A stretch of DNA of 23,646 nt from a virus. The notes below the pieces were generated by a model. It was given only the letters and a program-made list of their open reading frames with translations. It did not search any database and was not told the origin of the DNA. The stretch is taken from IMG/VR virus record IMGVR_UViG_3300032049_000003, positions 1 through 23,646 of that record; one strand, written 5' to 3'. Positions 3,536 to 23,646 of the stretch are shown one piece after another. Numbering within the stretch: the first letter of the stretch is position 1; every line of letters starts with the position of its first letter. The position numbers were made by a program, and so were the translations under genes.

Positions 3536-4312
3536 ATGGCGCAAAGGGCACTGATAGCCGGAACCGAACGGATTTTGGGATGTCTGCCGCGCACCATACC
3601 ACCGGGGACTGTTTATCCGGTTTTCGGTGAGCGGCCGACAGCGAGACTCATCCCGCGCGCGGAGTGGATTCCTTGTGATTGGTCCCATTTTATAACTCGG
3701 GTACTCGACCAGGATGGTACGGGTGCCTGTAACGCGTTCGCTAGTGTACAGGCAATACACATGTTGCGTGCGGCGGCAGGCCTCCCTTATGTCGAGCTAT
3801 CGGCCGGAAACCTGTACGGCCGAATCAACGGTGGACGCGATGCTGGTTCCACACTAGTTGATGCGATTCGCGAACTAGAACGGCGTGGAGTCTGTCGTGC
3901 AGCACTCGTCGGCCAGCTAGAATGGCAGCCGTGGCGCTGGCCTAAGAATTGGCAGGAGGATGCCATCCGCTTTAGGGTTCTAGAAGCGTGGGACTGCCCT
4001 ACGTTCGACCATATCGCTAGTGCGGTTCAGCTAGGGTTCGGTGTCAACATCGGGATCCTGATAGGAACGAATTTTGAACCGGGAACCGATGGGTGGGTTC
4101 CAGACCGGAAAGGTCGTGCCGGCGGTCACGCTATGTGTGCCGTAGGTCTGGAACGAAAGGGGGATGTATGGGGAATAAAAGTCGTGAATAGCTGGGGCGA
4201 GAAGTGGGGCAGAAAAGGCTACGCTATCATACCAGAGTCGTATTTCCGCGATGTGGTGTGGACCGACGGATGGGCAGTCCGCGTCGTCGTTGATCCGGAG
4301 GGACCCGAATGA
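3536..4312 (+). CDS. Papain-like (C1 family) cysteine peptidase
   Basis: All elements of a papain-type active site are present in order: Q59 (oxyanion hole) and C65 in LDQDGTGACNAFASVQA, H198 in AGGHAMCAVG, and N218 in VVNSWGEKWGRKGYAII. The last segment is the hallmark 'NSWG..WG..GY' motif. The 258-aa length equals one mature catalytic domain plus a short N-terminal extension; there is no obvious signal peptide or long inhibitory propeptide. It cleaves peptide bonds, but the substrate is unknown. It sits just before an XhlA-like membrane protein and overlaps it by 4 bases, so a role in host lysis or envelope penetration is plausible. Virion maturation is less likely because a separate capsid protease is encoded at 7615-8901. 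Confidence 0.85.
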   Translation: MAQRALIAGTERILGCLPRTIPPGTVYPVFGERPTARLIPRAEWIPCDWSHFITRVLDQDGTGACNAFASVQAIHMLRAAAGLPYVELSAGNLYGRINGGRDAGSTLVDAIRELERRGVCRAALVGQLEWQPWRWPKNWQEDAIRFRVLEAWDCPTFDHIASAVQLGFGVNIGILIGTNFEPGTDGWVPDRKGRAGGHAMCAVGLERKGDVWGIKVVNSWGEKWGRKGYAIIPESYFRDVVWTDGWAVRVVVDPEGPE

Positions 4313-5008: not shown

Positions 5009-6428
5009 CCTCCTAACGTTCACAGTGCTGACGAAGCGCGACTATCGCGTCAACTGGCACCACAGGCAATTGGCACACGTATTGACTGAATTGGCTGGTG
5101 GAACGATCACGCGCTTGATCGTCTGCATGCCGCCAGGGCATGGCAAGAGTGAATTGGTGTGCAGGCGCTTTCCTGCATGGTTGTTTGGTCGTGATCCGGG
5201 AACACGGATCATCCTCGTCACGCACACAGCAACACTCGCAGAGGCGCACAGCAGGGACATTCGTCGCATACTGGTAGATCCGTGGTACCAGGCTGTGTTT
5301 CCGACAACTCGCTTCGTGCACAGACCACATGACTGCCGCGATCGCGAAGACTTCTGGGAGTGGCCGGAGGGCGGTTATCTGCGAGCGACGGGTGTCGGAG
5401 GTGCCATTACTGGTTTGCGCTGTGATGTGGCCATCATCGATGATCCCATAAAATCGCGCGAGGAGGCAGAAAGCGAGGTGTACCGCGAACGTTTGTGGGA
5501 ATGGTTTACATCCGACCTATATACACGCTTAAGTCGCGAGGGACGCATCATCGTATGTTCCACACGCTGGCACCGAGATGACCTCGTCGGGCGACTGTTA
5601 CGTATGTCCAGGGAGGACTGGCGCGTTCTGTCGTTCCCCGCTATAGCCACCGACAAGCGAGATGCTGTAGGTGATCCGCGGCAACCCGGTGACGCGCTAT
5701 GGCCGGAGTTTTTGTCAACCGCGAAATTATTGGAAATTCAAAGACAGGATCCGCGCGCGTTTGCGGCCCTGTACCAACAAGACCCAGCGGAGGCAGAGGG
5801 GACTGAGTTTCCCGCGTCCTATTTCGGTGACTGGTTGTGGCTGGGTGAGGACCGTTGGCCACCACCAGTCAGCCATTGGGTGATGGCTATCGATCCATCC
5901 AGGGGCCGGAGCGATTCACCGGGCGATTATGCCGCGATCGTCATCGTCGGTGTGGCACCTGATCGACAGTTACTGTACATCGATGCGGACATCGCGGTAC
6001 GACCACCAGAGGATCTCATACGTACAGCGTTGCGACTGTACGATACGTACCGACCAGTTTGGGTGGCGGTAGAGACAAACCAGTATCACGGGCTTCTTGA
6101 GCGGCTCTTCGAACGGGAGTCCATGCAGCGCTATGGGATCCGCATTCCTGCATGGCCAATAACCAACGTAGAACCGAAGGTTATGCGAATTCGTCGCCTG
6201 GCTCCGTATTTGGCACATCGGGAATTGCGCTTCCGTGATACGCCCGCGTGTCGGCTGCTGGTCGAGCAACTGCAGGAGTTCCCGTTGGGACGGTACGACG
6301 ATGGGCCTGATGCGCTGGAAATGGCCGTGCGCATCCTCACCAGTACGGCCGCATTTACACCAGAGCGTCAGGTAGTTCCGTGGGAAGGGCCTACCGTTTT
6401 GCCGTGGACACCGAGATATGGGCGATAG
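4914..6428 (+). CDS. terL: Terminase large subunit (ATPase and nuclease)
   Basis: The 504-aa protein has both terminase domains. The ATPase carries Walker A PPGHGKSE (73-80) and Walker B AIIDDP (173-178, D176/D177). The RNase H-like nuclease carries D327 (MAIDPS), E387 (VAVETN) and the DDGPDAL acidic cluster (462-468). It drives ATP-dependent packaging of DNA into the prohead and cuts the concatemer. The ATG at 4914 lies 95 bases inside the small-subunit gene. GCGGAA upstream is a tolerable ribosome site, and residues from about 23 (RAALARARRDLLTF) already match the family, so the true start must be near here. A GTG at 5025 would cut into the conserved region. It overlaps the next gene by 11 bases. 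Confidence 0.95.
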   Translation: MQKSHVCSARWDTKKRILHLLTRAALARARRDLLTFTVLTKRDYRVNWHHRQLAHVLTELAGGTITRLIVCMPPGHGKSELVCRRFPAWLFGRDPGTRIILVTHTATLAEAHSRDIRRILVDPWYQAVFPTTRFVHRPHDCRDREDFWEWPEGGYLRATGVGGAITGLRCDVAIIDDPIKSREEAESEVYRERLWEWFTSDLYTRLSREGRIIVCSTRWHRDDLVGRLLRMSREDWRVLSFPAIATDKRDAVGDPRQPGDALWPEFLSTAKLLEIQRQDPRAFAALYQQDPAEAEGTEFPASYFGDWLWLGEDRWPPPVSHWVMAIDPSRGRSDSPGDYAAIVIVGVAPDRQLLYIDADIAVRPPEDLIRTALRLYDTYRPVWVAVETNQYHGLLERLFERESMQRYGIRIPAWPITNVEPKVMRIRRLAPYLAHRELRFRDTPACRLLVEQLQEFPLGRYDDGPDALEMAVRILTSTAAFTPERQVVPWEGPTVLPWTPRYGR

Positions 6429-7512
6429 TGACCTATTTCGCGAAGCGGAAAATGAGATTCGTAGGCAGCTAGAGGCAGCATTTTGGCAGACACCATTCGG
6501 CCAGTTGGTGCAGCGATATCGAGGAACTGGCCGAGTGGGTTATGCGGAAATCTTCAAACTGGTGGACGCGGCCGGAGGGTTTAGGGACTACGGCCCGCGT
6601 ATCGCGCACGAGTTGCGTTTAATCGAACGCTATTCCGCGTTCGATTATCGGAGATATCTGCGGGAGTTTCTAAAACAACTTGGACCGGCGGGCCGCTTGC
6701 TTGAGGTAATCGTTGGCGGCCTAACCTCTGCTGGTCGGCTGGACGCAGTTAAGACAGCGGTTGAACTGCTGCGGGCATTCGGCTTTGAAGTGCTGCCGCG
6801 CCCAGGCATGCCCTTATCGCGGCAAGAACTACAACGTGCAGTGCAGGCAGCACGGCAGTTCCTGGACTGGGCATCGCAGTTACAACATGTTCCAGAAAGG
6901 CGGCCAGTTCAACCCGCGAGGATGCTGGCAGAGCAGATTGAAAAGCGGCGCCGCCAGGCAATTGAGGGTGACTATGTTATTGTGCCATTTGCTGATGGTC
7001 CCCGGCAGTATCCAGCGGACCATCCACTAGTGACTGGTGAAATGGTCCGGGTTCAGTCGAGCAACGTGTACTCGATCGGTTACGACCTGAACACGCATAC
7101 TCTATACGTACGGTTCCTGGTGGAACGCATCAGTGATGGCAGGGTAACCCGATCACCGGGTAGTCTGTACGGCTATAGGAATGTGACACCCGAAGAATTC
7201 CTCGATTTTCTCTCGGCACCGTCAAAGGGGAACTGGGTATGGGATCACCTGCGTATACGCGGGACTGTGAGTGGTCATCAAAAGGACTATTTTCTGGCCG
7301 GTATCAGTGGCGGATACATACCTAGAAAGGCCACTCTAAAGTGGATTCGGCATCCGAGGACGGGTAAACCGTACCTGGCGGAGGTGTTTGCACCGCGAAC
7401 CGTTATTCTGGGCGGCCAGTACGTAACGAGCCAGAGACCATTGGAAGTCGTGCAGGTTCTCAAAGTGGTTAGGCCGCCACGACCGGAACTACGACCGTTG
7501 ATGGGCTTGTAA
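6418..7512 (+). CDS. KTSC-domain protein following terminase
   Basis: The 364-aa product has a helical N-terminal part (1-180) ending in a charged segment (EQIEKRRRQAIEG). A beta-rich domain at about 211-282 matches the KTSC pattern: VQSSNVYSIGYDLNTHTLYV, GSLYGYRNVTPEEFLDFL and APSKGNWVWDHL. KTSC domains occur in phage and bacterial proteins and are of poorly known function; some are linked to lysyl-tRNA synthetase homologues. A C-terminal stretch of about 75 residues follows. The gene sits where many phages carry the portal or a minor head protein, so a virion or prohead component is likely. It does not look like a portal, which is found at 11411. Confidence 0.65.
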   Translation: MGDSDLFREAENEIRRQLEAAFWQTPFGQLVQRYRGTGRVGYAEIFKLVDAAGGFRDYGPRIAHELRLIERYSAFDYRRYLREFLKQLGPAGRLLEVIVGGLTSAGRLDAVKTAVELLRAFGFEVLPRPGMPLSRQELQRAVQAARQFLDWASQLQHVPERRPVQPARMLAEQIEKRRRQAIEGDYVIVPFADGPRQYPADHPLVTGEMVRVQSSNVYSIGYDLNTHTLYVRFLVERISDGRVTRSPGSLYGYRNVTPEEFLDFLSAPSKGNWVWDHLRIRGTVSGHQKDYFLAGISGGYIPRKATLKWIRHPRTGKPYLAEVFAPRTVILGGQYVTSQRPLEVVQVLKVVRPPRPELRPLMGL

Positions 7513-17028: not shown

Positions 17029-19956
17029 ATGAGCCTGCGAATCGTCTATAGATACTCAGGACATCCCATCCCGTTATGGGATGGCCGAGGGATACTACGT
17101 GAACATGTTGACAGGTTACTAGCGCTTCCGCCGCTTAAAAAACTATACGAAAAACGGGAATGGATACCTGGCTGGGTGGGTGGTAAAGGGGATGCAGGCC
17201 CTCCCGGGTTTGGGCAACCAGTCGGCGCTTTTGAATGGGATCCGATGCCGGAGATCAAACCGGGCGTGCTCTATTGGGCTACAGGGGCAACACGACCAGC
17301 TATACTAGTGATCACTTTGCCCGGAGCACTCCTCCTCGATGCCCTCAGGACTCCCTGCCCGCTCTTCGAATTCGGTTTCCTCGATCAGAACTTGCATGAA
17401 GTCGATTACTTCTATATACCACTGTTCCCCGTATCATGGATTCGCGTTGGTTGGGTAGAGTCACCGTATCCGTTAGGTCCGACGACAACCTCCACAACGA
17501 CAACACGTGAATATGACGAGCCCCTACCCAAGAGCGGACGTCCAGAGATAATCATCCCACACGGTCTGTATTTGACGGCCCTGGTGTCCTGGACCTATTT
17601 CCTACGCGAAATCTATGTCGATATTACGGATACGTCCTCATGGGCCGCCATCTGTCGCGACATATTTCAGGCCCTGATAGAGCACGGCCGTGTTGGTGCT
17701 TATTTGAACTTCCTACAAATCGAACGGTGGTATCAACTGTTTATTTACCGTGAGGACGACCACGAGGTTCCGATACCTGGATGGGACACGTTGCCGGAGT
17801 ACCTCGAAACCACCACGACGACGACCACGACAACCACCACATTCGAGTGCATCCCCAAAGGCTCGACCACGACCACGACGACGACGACGAGCACAACGAC
17901 CACAACGACCACAACGGGTGATGCGGACTATGAGTGTCTTACTGTACCAAACTCTACCATTTGGTATGGCTCTCGCATACCGGCCGATTGTGCTATCGAT
18001 GCAGTGGCTGCACATTTGTGTGCCATTGCCCACGTGAGTGATCTAGTGTATTTTCGCAAAGTGGCACGCCCAGCAGTGATGACAGGACAGCATCTAGCTG
18101 GGCGGATTCGTGAGGGTACAGGAGTTCAGCGCCTAACTGTGTTAGCTCCTGAATGCGTAGAAAACAAACTGCCAAGTCGGCGCTATTTCAGTGACTGGAA
18201 ACTGCCAATTGCGAGAGGGGATTTGCAGTTAACGATCACGGAATCGACGTGCTCAAAGGACTGCCTCTATTCGCGCCTGTTCAAAATCCATAAAGCACTA
18301 TGGCGCAGACTCGGTCGTGGTGGCAAAACCGCCAGTTTCGTCCTCACGGGAACACCGTTCCTTCCGGAGCAAACCGATTGGATATCGATAGACCTCGCAG
18401 AAGGTACCGCGACAATCCGCAGTGCCGGGGCTGTTCACTGGCCTCGGTCTTGGGCGTGGGACTGCCCGACAACGACAACGACCACAGCCCCCGGCCTATT
18501 CGGGCCACGTTATGAACCAAAAACTCGACCACGACGTGAGCCGCATCCCTGTACACGATGCCACTGCTACTGGACGTGCCAAGGGACTCAGGATGGATAC
18601 TATTGGGTGCGCATCGATGAACTAGACGAGTGTACAGAACCATGTCAATGTCCTGAACCGTTTGAGGTCGAGTGCGACCAGGAGTATGTCGGTGCACAGT
18701 GGACCGTGTTCTGCGAAGAGAAGCCTGACGATCACTGTTGGGGCCACTATGCGCGGTGGAAGTGGGTACAGGACGGCGAAACCTATTCCGAGGGACATTG
18801 GGAACTAGAGGAACCGTGCCCTAATGGGTGTGACTCGTGTTATCCGGAATTTTGCTGTGAGGATGAAACAATCACACTCGATGATGGGACAACCACTACA
18901 CAGGAGTACGAGTGTACACATACCTACACTGAGTGCTTTGCTTCTGGAACACGTGAATGTCCGGATGGCGGTGCCTTCCCTGAAGGGCGTGATTGCCGGA
19001 CCACAACGAGCACAACAACGTCGACGACGACAACGACTCCTGAGTCCTGCGACGGTGAGTGTACGTGGATTTGGACGGACCAGGGCTACGTTAGAACTAA
19101 ACGAGATACGCCCGAACATGAGGACTGTCCTGAGGGCTGTACCTGCTGTTACCCCCCTGACTGTTCAGACGTAGAATATGGAGATATAGTGCGTGGAACA
19201 TGTGCCAAAAGCGCATCCGAGTGTCCGGAAGTACCTGACGAATGTACACCTATAGATCCGCTCTGCGGTCCCTGGCCTCCAGGACACCCGTGTTGTGAGG
19301 ACCCTCATGCACCGAAGCCTCCTAAACCGAGGGATTGCCGCTGTGGTCGAGAGGGTCGATGTGTATGGTATCTCGCCCCGCCCGATCCTGGCAGCCTGAC
19401 GCTATTAGAGTTCGATTGCTGTCCTGAATGCCCATGTGAACTGCCGCAGGATATACAACTGTGTGGTACAGAGATCACCTATTGTCGTCCCGAACCACCA
19501 CGACCCCCGCGGCCAGCAGAAACACGCTGTCGTGGAGGCTGTATCTACGTGTGGTGTGAATGGCCAGACGGCTGGACGGGCTGGGTTTTGATACATGGTG
19601 GCTGTGTTCGTGGTACTGCATTAGAGTGTGAGTGGAAAACCTGGAAGGGCTCTGTACGCCGCTCACCGTGCCTAGAATGTGCGTGCGGTGCTCCTGCTAG
19701 TGGATCCTATCCGTGCGTAGGTCGTTGTGTGTGGGAATGCCAAAATGGAAGGTGGGTCCAAACTATGTCTTGCAAGGATGCGGGCGACGGGGCAGGGTGT
19801 ACATGCCCTGAGGTCACTCTGACTCAACAGTGTTCTAATGGGGATAGGATTAGTGGTGCCTGCATCGGCTATAATACCTATCCGGTCTGTGGTACACTAT
19901 CTATCCAGGACTGTGTGTGTGTCTGTCCGCACTATGACTGTACGAGCGGCCCATGA
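17029..19956 (+). CDS. Tail appendage protein with Cys/Trp modules and Thr-rich linkers
   Basis: The 975-aa protein has an N-terminal virion-attachment-like region (1-250), which includes a short GKGDAGPPGFGQP stretch. A second folded region spans about 297-478. The Cys-rich half (508-975) holds at least six related modules, at about 508-543, 570-609, 674-710, 770-805, 834-886 and 896-927. The module pattern is C-x-G-x-C-x-W, a hydrophobic strand with a second W, then C..C-x-C and often P, for example CDGECTWIWTDQGYVRT then CPEGCTCCYP. Mostly-Thr linkers occur at 151-159, 261-271, 280-296, 481-486 and 657-670. This is likely a receptor-binding or adhesion appendage; disulfides are probable once outside the cell. 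It overlaps the next gene by 4 bases (ATGA). Confidence 0.6.
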   Translation: MSLRIVYRYSGHPIPLWDGRGILREHVDRLLALPPLKKLYEKREWIPGWVGGKGDAGPPGFGQPVGAFEWDPMPEIKPGVLYWATGATRPAILVITLPGALLLDALRTPCPLFEFGFLDQNLHEVDYFYIPLFPVSWIRVGWVESPYPLGPTTTSTTTTREYDEPLPKSGRPEIIIPHGLYLTALVSWTYFLREIYVDITDTSSWAAICRDIFQALIEHGRVGAYLNFLQIERWYQLFIYREDDHEVPIPGWDTLPEYLETTTTTTTTTTTFECIPKGSTTTTTTTTSTTTTTTTTGDADYECLTVPNSTIWYGSRIPADCAIDAVAAHLCAIAHVSDLVYFRKVARPAVMTGQHLAGRIREGTGVQRLTVLAPECVENKLPSRRYFSDWKLPIARGDLQLTITESTCSKDCLYSRLFKIHKALWRRLGRGGKTASFVLTGTPFLPEQTDWISIDLAEGTATIRSAGAVHWPRSWAWDCPTTTTTTAPGLFGPRYEPKTRPRREPHPCTRCHCYWTCQGTQDGYYWVRIDELDECTEPCQCPEPFEVECDQEYVGAQWTVFCEEKPDDHCWGHYARWKWVQDGETYSEGHWELEEPCPNGCDSCYPEFCCEDETITLDDGTTTTQEYECTHTYTECFASGTRECPDGGAFPEGRDCRTTTSTTTSTTTTTPESCDGECTWIWTDQGYVRTKRDTPEHEDCPEGCTCCYPPDCSDVEYGDIVRGTCAKSASECPEVPDECTPIDPLCGPWPPGHPCCEDPHAPKPPKPRDCRCGREGRCVWYLAPPDPGSLTLLEFDCCPECPCELPQDIQLCGTEITYCRPEPPRPPRPAETRCRGGCIYVWCEWPDGWTGWVLIHGGCVRGTALECEWKTWKGSVRRSPCLECACGAPASGSYPCVGRCVWECQNGRWVQTMSCKDAGDGAGCTCPEVTLTQQCSNGDRISGACIGYNTYPVCGTLSIQDCVCVCPHYDCTSGP
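17809..17916 (+). repeat. ACN triplet tracts encoding Thr linkers
   Basis: Two runs of Thr codons (residues 261-271 and 280-296 of the appendage protein) flank a short FECIPKGS segment. The codons mix ACG, ACA and ACC in no fixed order, so the selection appears to be for threonine rather than for a DNA repeat. Shorter runs of the same type occur near 17479-17505, 18469-18486 and 18997-19038. Confidence 0.8.
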
Positions 19957-22067
19957 TTCCCTGTGCGCTTAGGTGCCGTATGGCGTACTGGCATGGGCAG
20001 TGGGTCCCTCACGGGGACAGGGACTGCCCAGCGTTGTGTGAGTGCAGTCCTCCGCGACTGCCCGCGACGCTCGCTTTGAGAAACGGGGACACATTTATGT
20101 CCTCGTGTACACCATCGCGCACGACAACGACAACGACGAGTTATGATCTTCCGCCACCTCCGCCTCCGACTACGACAACGACAGGCGACGCGCCATACGG
20201 GTATTGCATTTACGAGTTCGACCTTGGACAGCAGGAGTACCGATTGGCCCAGCAAAACTGTGTAGAGGGCCATAAATGCCCAGGACCACCATGTGACTGG
20301 CACGGCCTCTCAATTCGGCGCGACTGTATTCCCGAAAACACACCAGAGGAGGAATGTCCCTGCGATGGACGGTTTTGTGAGTATTACGCGAGCTATGGAC
20401 GCGCAGGATACTATCTCGTAGCCAAGCGGTGTCGCGGTCAGGACTGTCTTTGCGGTGAACCGATTCTCAGGTATCCACAGGGTGAGTACAATTTAGCACG
20501 TTACTGGCGGTGGACACGGTTTCACTATCCGTGGGAAGGGGATCCATATGCAACCCATTTGGATTCACGCCCCCCTGCACTTGTGTTCACCGAGTGCAGG
20601 GATGACATAGACGGAGACTGGCAGCCCCCGCGCTGCTTTGGGTGGGCACTATTTTATAAATCCCTGCCACTGCCTAGCGAGGTACAAAACGCGCGAGAAT
20701 ATCACCTAGCCCAGAATGCACGTTGCCCTGAGGGCTGTGAACCATATGAGCATCCCTGTGAGAACGATTGGTACATTTGGAACGGTCCAGACGAGGTGTG
20801 GATGCCGTGTGTCGAGGCCGATGGACCACTCGCGAACCGATATCCTGGCTGGAACCCCACGATTGATTGCCAGTGCCGCGGCCGCTGCTACTGGGTTTCC
20901 TACGACGGAAAAATTTGGTCGAGAAAGGAGCCACAGAATCGTGCACCCTGCTATTGCCGTTTTCGTAGACGGTGGACACCTGAACTCTGTTACTGCCCGT
21001 ACCCAGACCACCCACCAAAGGGCATAGGTGATGAAACGTATACGTCCTGTAAGGGCGTAGACATCAACGAGGCAAGGATCGGTCTGTGGTATGGCGCCAA
21101 TATATTCCCATTCGGAGGACCTAGCCCTGAGCAGGCGCGTGTGCGCTGCATACCATGGCCCGATGGGGGTGAGTACTGCCGTTGTGAATTTGCGGACATA
21201 TATACGGACGAACAGGGGGCGCATTTCGTCCCAACCGACCAACTCTATCCAAAATATGAAGCGGGGCGCCTGGTGTGCGAGTCGGTCTTTAGGCTCTTTT
21301 CCGTCCACCATTGCCGGGATCTACCACCACCGCCACCACCGCCTCCGCCACCTCCACCACCTCCGCCGCCGGAGCCACCGTGGCCCACAACAACATCCAC
21401 GACAACGAGCACGACACCGGATGGCCAACCCCAATGTTCTGATGCCCTGTGCACGTGGTTTTGGGCCGGTTTTCGCGGCTATTACTGGTTCCTAGCACTG
21501 GATAGGTGCAGCGCCTACGGAAATGACTGTACATGCCCATATCCTACATTTATCCCGGAGGGAGGACTACCGGCCTTTGTCCACTTCCAGTGTCAAGGAG
21601 GCACGACGACCACTACAACGACGAGCACTACGACGACGACTACGACGACTACAACGACGACCACTACAACGACGACCCCAGAGACTGAACCAACAACTAC
21701 GACATCCACGACCACGACAACTACGACCAGCACAACAACGACCACGACCAGCACAACGACTAGCACGACGACAACCACGACGAGTACTACAACGACGTCG
21801 ACGACTACAACCAGCACGACGACCAGCACAACAACGACAACCAGCACAACCACCAGCACAACGACGACAACGGAGGACTCCTATTATGGGTGTTCGTCCT
21901 GCTATTGCTGGTGGTATACCTACGAGGATAGCGGTGGCAATCTGTACTGGGAGTTGATACAATGGTGCTCGGGTGGACAGGAGTGTGGCGCTTGTACAGG
22001 TTGTCAACCGCCGCCACGCAATCCGCAGTACTACGGTGAGTTGCTATTGACTCTGTGTTACATGTGA
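19953..22067 (+). CDS. Second Cys/Trp-module appendage protein with poly-Pro and mucin-like tract
   Basis: The 704-aa protein starts directly inside a Cys/Trp module (CALRCRMAYWHGQWVPHGDRDC), continuing the module family of the upstream gene. More modules lie at about 85-115, 137-170, 308-335, 495-530 and 646-683, for example CRGRCYWVSYDGKIW and CSDALCTWFWAG. Linkers are extreme: PPPPPP near 67-72, 16 consecutive prolines at 458-473, and about 90 residues of almost pure Thr/Ser at 551-640. No enzymatic domain is seen. It is probably a tail fibre or tip component exposed to the environment, with rigid (Pro) and possibly glycosylated (Thr/Ser) stalks. Its ATG overlaps the previous stop, so both are made together, perhaps as a complex. 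Confidence 0.6.
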   Translation: MIPCALRCRMAYWHGQWVPHGDRDCPALCECSPPRLPATLALRNGDTFMSSCTPSRTTTTTTSYDLPPPPPPTTTTTGDAPYGYCIYEFDLGQQEYRLAQQNCVEGHKCPGPPCDWHGLSIRRDCIPENTPEEECPCDGRFCEYYASYGRAGYYLVAKRCRGQDCLCGEPILRYPQGEYNLARYWRWTRFHYPWEGDPYATHLDSRPPALVFTECRDDIDGDWQPPRCFGWALFYKSLPLPSEVQNAREYHLAQNARCPEGCEPYEHPCENDWYIWNGPDEVWMPCVEADGPLANRYPGWNPTIDCQCRGRCYWVSYDGKIWSRKEPQNRAPCYCRFRRRWTPELCYCPYPDHPPKGIGDETYTSCKGVDINEARIGLWYGANIFPFGGPSPEQARVRCIPWPDGGEYCRCEFADIYTDEQGAHFVPTDQLYPKYEAGRLVCESVFRLFSVHHCRDLPPPPPPPPPPPPPPPPEPPWPTTTSTTTSTTPDGQPQCSDALCTWFWAGFRGYYWFLALDRCSAYGNDCTCPYPTFIPEGGLPAFVHFQCQGGTTTTTTTSTTTTTTTTTTTTTTTTTPETEPTTTTSTTTTTTTSTTTTTTSTTTSTTTTTTSTTTTSTTTTSTTTSTTTTTSTTTSTTTTTEDSYYGCSSCYCWWYTYEDSGGNLYWELIQWCSGGQECGACTGCQPPPRNPQYYGELLLTLCYM
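21324..21371 (+). repeat. Run of 16 proline codons
   Basis: Sixteen uninterrupted Pro codons (CCA, CCG and CCT mixed) encode a polyproline stalk ahead of a short Thr linker. Polyproline runs stall ribosomes and normally need elongation factor P. The mixed codons argue for selection on the protein. Confidence 0.9.
21603..21872 (+). repeat. 270-bp mucin-like Thr/Ser tract
   Basis: Ninety codons, nearly all Thr with scattered Ser, are interrupted once by PETEP at residues 575-579. Codons mix ACG, ACA, ACC and ACT, and Ser uses AGC, AGT, TCC and TCG. Triplet slippage would change stalk length without breaking the frame. The composition resembles O-glycosylated mucin domains. A glycosyltransferase gene begins about 210 bases downstream. 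Confidence 0.9.
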
Positions 22068-22085
22068 GGGAGGTATCTGACTGCC

Positions 22086-23646
22086 ATGAACGTCAGCTTC
22101 GTCACAGCGACCTATCGGGACCTGCGTGTGATCGAGACTGTACAGTCGCTGCGTCTTCACCATGGACTCCTAGATGCGGACATCGTAGTCGTAGATAATG
22201 CGCCGCATACACCAGAGGGTGCGCAACTGGAGGACTTTTCTAGAAAGACAGGCATACGGTATATTCCGTTCACTGATGCCGTCGGTACCTCACCGGCACG
22301 GAACAAGGCGATTTTAGAGGCACGTCATGAGTGGGTACTCTGTTTTGATTGTCACGTTCTTTTTCCGTCTGATTTAGTGGAGAACGTGGAACGGGCTCTA
22401 GAATATGCTGGTAATGCGCGCATTCTTTTCCATGGTGTAAAATTGTACGACGACCTGCGCAGCAACCCAGCAACACATTTTGAACCAGTGTTCAGGTATG
22501 GCATGCTCGGTATCTGGCGATATGATCCGCGAGCTGAACGCAATGAACCATTCGAAATTCCGGGCAGCGGCTTCGGCATGTTCCTGGTGAGGAAGAGTGA
22601 CTTTTTCTTAGCTGGTGGTTTTCACCCAGCAGCCCGCGGGTTCGGCGGGGAGGAAATATGCTTCCATGAAGCATTCCGCAGAACAGATGGCCGCGTAGTG
22701 TGTTTCCCGGGACTTAGGTACTGGCACAATTTTCACCAGGTGCAGGTGCGGTATCCGCTCTATCTCCATGATAAGGTCCGCAATTACATGCTGTGGTTCC
22801 GCCTTTTGAACTGGGATATCGAGCGATTGAAACGGCATTTCGTGAAGGGATTCACTGTGCCAGAGGTTACAGGGGACGGTGAATTGTGCGACGTCTCACC
22901 ACATTTGATGACAGAAGAGGAATTTGTTTCCCTGTGGGAAACGCTCGACGAACCATACGTACCTCCGACTGTTCCATCGCACCATTCGGAACAACGCGAG
23001 GCCACGCGACGAGGCTGCGGGGCATGCGGTGAACGTCCTCGGCCCGAACTGGATCACATTGCAGAAACGCTCGGACAGCTAGGGGTTGGCACTGAACACG
23101 TGACTATCGTCACGTTCGACCGCCGCTGGATTGAAAAATTTCCGTCTGCGCGGATCGTTACGCTAAACACGGAACTACGTGCGGAAAACGTTGTTTACCA
23201 GCCGCTGAACAAATTGCCACAACCAGAAGAGGGCCGATCGGTGTTGATTTGGGACCCGCCACAGCCCCTCGGTCCGATGTTTGAGACCATCCGGGACCAA
23301 GTCCACGTCTGGCCTACGCTGGTGATTTGCAATTTAGGACGCGGTGATAACATCGTCGTGCAGGTATACGATCCCCGGACACGCAGTCCAGGTATACGCG
23401 AGGAAAAGACGGTTCTGCGGGCCATACGTGAATGGCTTTCCAGTACCGGTTCTCCATATGCGGTGATCAGTCTAGACAACGAGGGAGAGGGCTACATAAT
23501 ACTATCGCGTGATCCTGCGTACAGTCACAAGAGGTTGCCGAATTGGTTTGAAAAGCTCAGAAACTTCGCTGCGAGTGCAGTACAACACGTCGCGAGCGGC
23601 GCTGCTATAGTACCCGATGAGGTGTACCGAAAACGGATAGAAATCT
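22086..23646 (+). CDS. GT2-type glycosyltransferase (partial, runs off the right edge)
   Basis: The frame from ATG 22086 is open to the window end (520 codons) with no stop. GGGAGG (22068-22073) lies 12 bases upstream. Residues 1-95 are a GT-A nucleotide-sugar domain: VSFVTATYRD, ADIVVVDNAP, GTSPARNKAI and 'CFDCHVLF' in the place of the DxD motif (D88 and H90). 'GGFHPAARGFGGEEICFHEA' (177-196) matches the 'GG..E.F.GWGGED.E' region of GalNAc/galactosyltransferase-type enzymes (GT27, Glyco_transf_7C). It ends 'VVCFPGLRYWHNFHQ'. From about residue 300, after CGACGERP, an unrecognised second domain begins (ELDHIAETLGQLGVG, SVLIWDPPQPLGP, PYAVISLDNEGEGYII). It probably transfers a sugar. The adjacent Thr-rich appendages are candidate substrates. 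Confidence 0.7.
   Translation, partial: MNVSFVTATYRDLRVIETVQSLRLHHGLLDADIVVVDNAPHTPEGAQLEDFSRKTGIRYIPFTDAVGTSPARNKAILEARHEWVLCFDCHVLFPSDLVENVERALEYAGNARILFHGVKLYDDLRSNPATHFEPVFRYGMLGIWRYDPRAERNEPFEIPGSGFGMFLVRKSDFFLAGGFHPAARGFGGEEICFHEAFRRTDGRVVCFPGLRYWHNFHQVQVRYPLYLHDKVRNYMLWFRLLNWDIERLKRHFVKGFTVPEVTGDGELCDVSPHLMTEEEFVSLWETLDEPYVPPTVPSHHSEQREATRRGCGACGERPRPELDHIAETLGQLGVGTEHVTIVTFDRRWIEKFPSARIVTLNTELRAENVVYQPLNKLPQPEEGRSVLIWDPPQPLGPMFETIRDQVHVWPTLVICNLGRGDNIVVQVYDPRTRSPGIREEKTVLRAIREWLSSTGSPYAVISLDNEGEGYIILSRDPAYSHKRLPNWFEKLRNFAASAVQHVASGAAIVPDEVYRKRIEI

Follow-up and report, generated by a model that had tools for sequence, protein, structure and literature searches.

The window, that is the whole stretch of DNA analysed, is an IMG/VR fragment of 23,646 bases from an uncultured tailed phage. 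Genes for a terminase large subunit (phrog_38, E 2e-107), a Mu-type portal (PF06074, E 2e-44) and a head protein (phrog_1005) lie ahead of two genes whose products carry long Thr/Ser tracts (Table 1) and whose reading frames overlap by 4 nt. The glycosyltransferase (GT) gene starts 18 nt after the second of these, so that the earlier note was right to place a GT2-type enzyme directly after two tract proteins (PF00535 Glycos_transf_2, E 4.6e-12, 46.6 bits against a curated cut-off of 23.3). Its reading frame has not closed where the window stops. In L002, a close relative of the window whose GT is 73% identical, the full enzyme has 555 aa from the same start and ends in a Zn ribbon; it is followed by a second GT gene, also beyond the window edge. 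Elsewhere in the window there are a papain-like C1 cysteine peptidase gene (3536-4312, PF00112 E 6.7e-9), a 364-aa protein with a KTSC domain after the terminase (6418-7512, PF13619 E 1.2e-12) and an 11-bp tandem DNA repeat (927-1044) within a minus-strand ORF (295-1572), which encodes PTPSGPHTDP-type peptide repeats.

Table 1. Positions in the window of the tract proteins, the glycosyltransferase and their features
Feature	Position	Strand	Remarks
Late-module appendage-like protein 1, 975 aa	17029..19956	+	Homologues L002, L003, L160, L238, L146, L145
Thr/Ser tract, 8 residues	17482..17505	+	
Thr/Ser tracts of 11 and 18 residues with FECIPKG between	17809..17916	+	
Thr/Ser tract, 13 residues	19000..19038	+	
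Appendage-like protein 2, 704 aa	19953..22067	+	
90-residue Thr-rich region: 25 + PETEP + 60 T/S residues	21603..21872	+	
GT27-like DxH glycosyltransferase of GT-A fold; 520 aa before the window ends, incomplete	22086..23646	+	
DCH (residues 88-90) = DxH, taken as metal-binding from the GalNAc-T10 alignment	22347..22355	+	Both D and H unchanged among 104 relatives
FGGEE, aligned to WGGE of GalNAc-T10	22641..22655	+	
His214, aligned to His of RVGH in GalNAc-T10	22725..22727	+	
C-terminal Rossmann-like domain	23043..23646	+	Aligns with Methyltransf_24 region of L144 homologue

The Thr/Ser-tract proteins

Protein 1 begins with a domain common to other phages of the group and continues as Cys-rich modules joined by Thr/Ser tracts, while protein 2 has a poly-Pro stretch besides its Cys-rich modules and carries the longest tracts. 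When runs of at least 6 T/S residues were counted there were nine in all, five in protein 1 (8, 11, 18, 6 and 13 residues) and four in protein 2 (7, 10, 25 and 60). The tracts of up to about 90 residues claimed in the earlier note are therefore found only if the PETEP break between the last two is included; the longest unbroken run is 60 residues, compared with a maximum of 9 in 2000 shuffles of the 704-aa protein at the same composition. Both proteins contain about 7% Cys, with C-x-W...C-x-C modules between the tracts, and neither has a Pfam match. An origin of the tracts as a DNA microsatellite or by slippage was considered and ruled out by codon usage and kept tract positions: in the tracts Thr is written with each of its four codons and Ser with codons of both classes, the preferred Thr codon is ACG in the window and ACA in L002, and the positions of the tracts are kept in L002 and L003, indicating that it is the protein that is conserved and not a DNA repeat. 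The appendage role and virion location of both proteins are inferred from gene order only. For protein 1 this is because the structure model of its N-terminal domain (homologue L438, 6 sequences) was unusable, with a mean pLDDT of 36; single-protein scans with the same domain brought up nothing beyond the query contigs and near-copies of them.

Likeness of the glycosyltransferase to GT27

GT27 enzymes glycosylate Thr/Ser in mucin-like repeats, and the earlier note had likened the segment GGFHPAARGFGGEE (GT residues 177-190) to a motif of the GalNAc-transferases of this family. The likeness is borne out by the pairing of FGGEE with WGGE of GalNAc-T10, and it extends to the rest of the predicted active site, as DxH, GGE and the second His all pair with GalNAc-T10 and show little or no variation among 104 relatives (D88, H90, F186, G187, E189, E190, H214 and N233 are invariant in the 104-sequence alignment). 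An AlphaFold model of the GT (pLDDT about 97 across the GT domain) was used for a Foldseek search of the PDB, and the best 50 matches, which were those examined, were all polypeptide GalNAc-transferases (GT27; E 1.3e-13 to 2e-10). The comparison of GT27 with GT2 that had been proposed thus came out on the side of GT27, and the clustering with lipid or DNA-base GTs that would have spoken against it was not seen, there being no such entry in these top 50. Superposition on GalNAc-T10 gave 4.4 Å over 273 columns. The family profile aligned with GalNAc-T10 at 34-228 (E 3e-6), with DxH, GGE and His paired, and matched GalNAc-T4 at E 0.002; single-sequence phmmer gave 0.028. By E-value the best PDB matches of the profile were TarP and chondroitin synthase, confined to the N-terminal part, which is also the only part matched by other GT2 enzymes. 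A C-terminal ricin-B lectin domain is typical of GT27 although not universal, and no Pfam match to a lectin domain was found in the GT; in its C-terminal Rossmann-like domain the SAM-binding Gly motif of the L144 homologue is not recognisable. We regard the resemblance to GT27 as real, resting as it does on a predicted structure and alignments, but the phage GT has not been shown to be a formal member of that family. The DCH motif, the C-terminal Rossmann-like domain, the Cys-rich modules, the Zn ribbon and the second GT were not mentioned in the earlier note.

Family spread and pairing with poly-Thr

Scanning with the GT alignment gave at least 577 viral matches and 100 genome loci, of which the best 80 of each were analysed; tblastn with four GT queries found no match among 50,697 sequenced phages, nor did one GT query find any among 72,556 plasmids. 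With a T-rich gene defined as one having 40% T in 30 aa, such a gene stood at −1 of the GT in 21/51 viral loci and at +1 in 0/44 (best 80 of 577), the −1 figure comparing with 6/282 at other positions except −2 (p 2e-14). Among genome loci (best 80 of 100) the values were 10/35 at −1 and 3/31 at +1, with 5/221 elsewhere except −2 (p 1e-6). Counting T-rich ORFs within 1.5 kb gave the same direction, upstream 26/59 versus downstream 5/59 in viral loci (p 8e-6) and 24/68 versus 4/68 in genome loci (p 1.5e-5). The co-occurrence that had been predicted is thus present as an enrichment directly upstream, significant in viral and bacterial loci separately. In addition, (ACN)8 tracts occurred in 25/65 family contigs and in 0/50 random viral contigs (p 5e-8), and in contigs selected for T tracts a GT2 gene lay directly downstream in 6 cases where 0.94 were expected. 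It should be noted that the p values are uncorrected for relatedness, that the random control contigs were not GC-matched, that the loci were chosen by similarity to T-tract-linked GTs and that the ORFs were called mechanically.

The link between tract and enzyme proposed for phages therefore stands as enriched adjacency and not as a rule, as only 21/110 T-tract contigs have a PF00535 gene of any kind; poly-Thr alone does not predict the enzyme, and most Thr-tract contigs show none. Conversely, about half of the viral family loci have no T-rich neighbour. Many of these contigs show no (ACN)8, for example L166 and L205, where the GT lies among replication genes, and in L214 the tracts are elsewhere on the contig and not beside the GT, so the enzyme may have other acceptors. 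On the tree about 30 label changes are needed to account for the pairing, 10 of them forced by starred branches, which means that it has been gained or lost many times, or is missed in fragments, and is not the heritage of one clade. A second GT with a W[DE]DDD motif is present in 11/59 viral loci, mainly those of the window's kind with Cys-rich partners. Separately, a Cys-rich Thr-tract protein in L146 (contig IMGVR_UViG_3300023218_000089, 975-6149) has next to it three GTs, two of them of DxH type, together with a Stf0 sulphotransferase and a methyltransferase-like gene, which may form a cluster for glycan decoration. In L149, L151 and L156, DxH GT2 genes belonging to other subfamilies were also seen near Thr-tract genes, and several GT types may therefore serve such tracts.

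The GT domain of the genome contigs often follows, within one protein, an HprK-rel-A-like domain (TIGR04352, E 6e-25, below cut-off), and genes for PqqD and NTP_transf_5 lie close by. Directly upstream of the bacterial GT lies at least one short protein with a TAT-like start, a poly-Thr tail and the motifs W.KP and PAHA; TIGR01409 was above cut-off in two of these proteins, and a motif filter for such peptides picked out 17/68 genome loci, including L238, which is a phage-type locus. The fusion together with PqqD, NTP_transf_5 and TAT peptides was observed in L240, L243, L245, L247, L255, L260, L288 and others, apparently an undescribed exported-peptide system. The peptides have no Cys and no phage domains, and no recognised domain is common to bacterial and phage partner proteins, so that Thr is what the partners share. 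Cultured bacteria with family members include Desulfofustis glycolicus (L260) and Oricola indica (L255). In L238, which comes from a Thermogutta MAG, there are homologues of appendage protein 1 and of two neighbouring genes of the window; the locus is therefore probably phage or prophage DNA, which hints at Planctomycetota as hosts.

Proposed function, alternatives and known systems

Given the observed tract anatomy and genomic association with poly-Thr, and the GT27-like fold and active-site residues obtained by prediction and alignment, we think it probable that the phage GT is a dedicated metal-dependent, GT27-like poly-Thr O-glycosyltransferase acting on the tracts of the upstream proteins. 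Catalysis, donor sugar, extension, virion location and stiffness are inferred, and there are no glycan or activity data. In the infected cell the GT would move sugar from a nucleotide-sugar donor onto Thr/Ser hydroxyls in the tracts of both proteins, and the adjoining second GT (L002 and about ten relatives) may extend this first sugar. As the tracts link Cys-rich modules, their glycosylation would give a tail or surface appendage stiff linkers that resemble a bottle brush and resist proteases.

Four other explanations have to be weighed against poly-Thr glycosylation. The GT might modify a host surface glycan or a teichoic or lipid acceptor, in seroconversion or superinfection exclusion, its adjacency to the tract genes being due to late-gene co-transcription. 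The N-terminal matches to TarP and chondroitin synthase would fit this, and host-serotype-modifying phage GTs are known (PMC12619734); nevertheless we consider it unlikely, since the fold search favours GT27 and the upstream-only adjacency to Thr tracts recurs across deep divergence and in bacteria with unrelated partners. It is slightly less likely again that the GT glycosylates the Cys-rich modules (at Cys S- or Ser/Thr O-sites) and that the Thr tracts are passive linkers. Glycocin S-glycosyltransferases are GT2-like and provide a precedent, and the upstream proteins of the window's clade are indeed Cys-rich (more than 4% Cys at −1 in 15/58 loci), but the bacterial poly-Thr-tail peptides have no Cys and the phage partners in L181, L190 and L228 have tracts (129 residues in L181) with Cys at 0.4% or less, leaving Thr as the common factor. 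That the tracts are mere disordered spacers, travelling with the GT as cargo without mutual action, is compatible with the many phages that have T tracts and no GT on the same contig; we give this a little less weight still, as cargo status would hardly explain why the adjacency is directional, at −1 and never at +1 in viral loci, or why the pairing is repeated in bacterial systems with other partners. Glycosylation of hypermodified phage DNA is very improbable, for although DNA-hypermodifying virus-encoded GTs are on record (Pyle 2024, as cited in PMC12619734), none of the window proteins scanned was recognised as a base-hypermodification enzyme, the fold is GT27-like and the recurrent neighbour is a Thr-tract protein.

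Beyond the phage enzyme as a poly-Thr O-glycosyltransferase, we put at about even the wider proposal that GT27-like O-glycosyltransferases dedicated to poly-Thr form a widespread and apparently unnamed family in prokaryotes, serving phages for mucin-like virion appendages and bacteria for exported mucin-like peptides. If true, this would be a prokaryotic counterpart to mucin-type O-glycosylation, phages would be self-sufficient in making mucin-like, sugar-coated appendages, and the animal mucin O-glycosylation enzymes would be linked with a family of prokaryotes and viruses whose acceptor, poly-Thr, is very simple. Such an enzyme could serve as a simple tool for mucin-like proteins in E. coli, and the family members in cultured bacteria make modification of poly-Thr tails directly testable. 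Searches of the open-licence literature for glycosyltransferases or O-glycosylation in connection with poly-Thr, Thr-rich proteins, phages or TAT proteins gave nothing relevant, and no description of the system was found there.

Compared with the GT27 GalNAc-transferases of animals and Toxoplasma, the phage enzyme has the same GT-A fold, with DxH, GGE and the second His in matching places, and its family recurrently adjoins Thr/Ser-rich proteins; it differs in that identity is only 14-19%, FGGEE replaces WGGE(N/Q), and it has neither a recognised lectin (ricin-B) domain nor a secretory-pathway location. TarP and chondroitin synthase (PDB 6h1j, 2z86) share the N-terminal nucleotide-sugar half of the fold, but the match ends there and they have DxD in place of DxH. 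The bacterial branch resembles HprK-related kinase A/PqqD systems (NCBIfam TIGR04352, Pfam PF05402) in its fused HprK-rel-A-like domain and nearby PqqD, although the L247 fusion reaches 87.8 bits where the cut-off is 200, making it a relative and not a member, and the phage GT has no HprK domain. Virion glycosylation itself is known from mycobacteriophage (Freeman et al. 2023, as cited in PMC12619734), where phage virion proteins bear glycans. The glycans there are at the C-termini of capsid and tail-tube subunits, whereas here there are long Thr tracts in separate appendage-like proteins together with a GT27-like enzyme, whose gene adjoins its putative structural-protein target in the window, L002 and many relatives (the neighbour's place in the virion being inferred from gene order). 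The new elements are the GT27-like enzyme, the inferred poly-Thr acceptor and the bacterial parallel.
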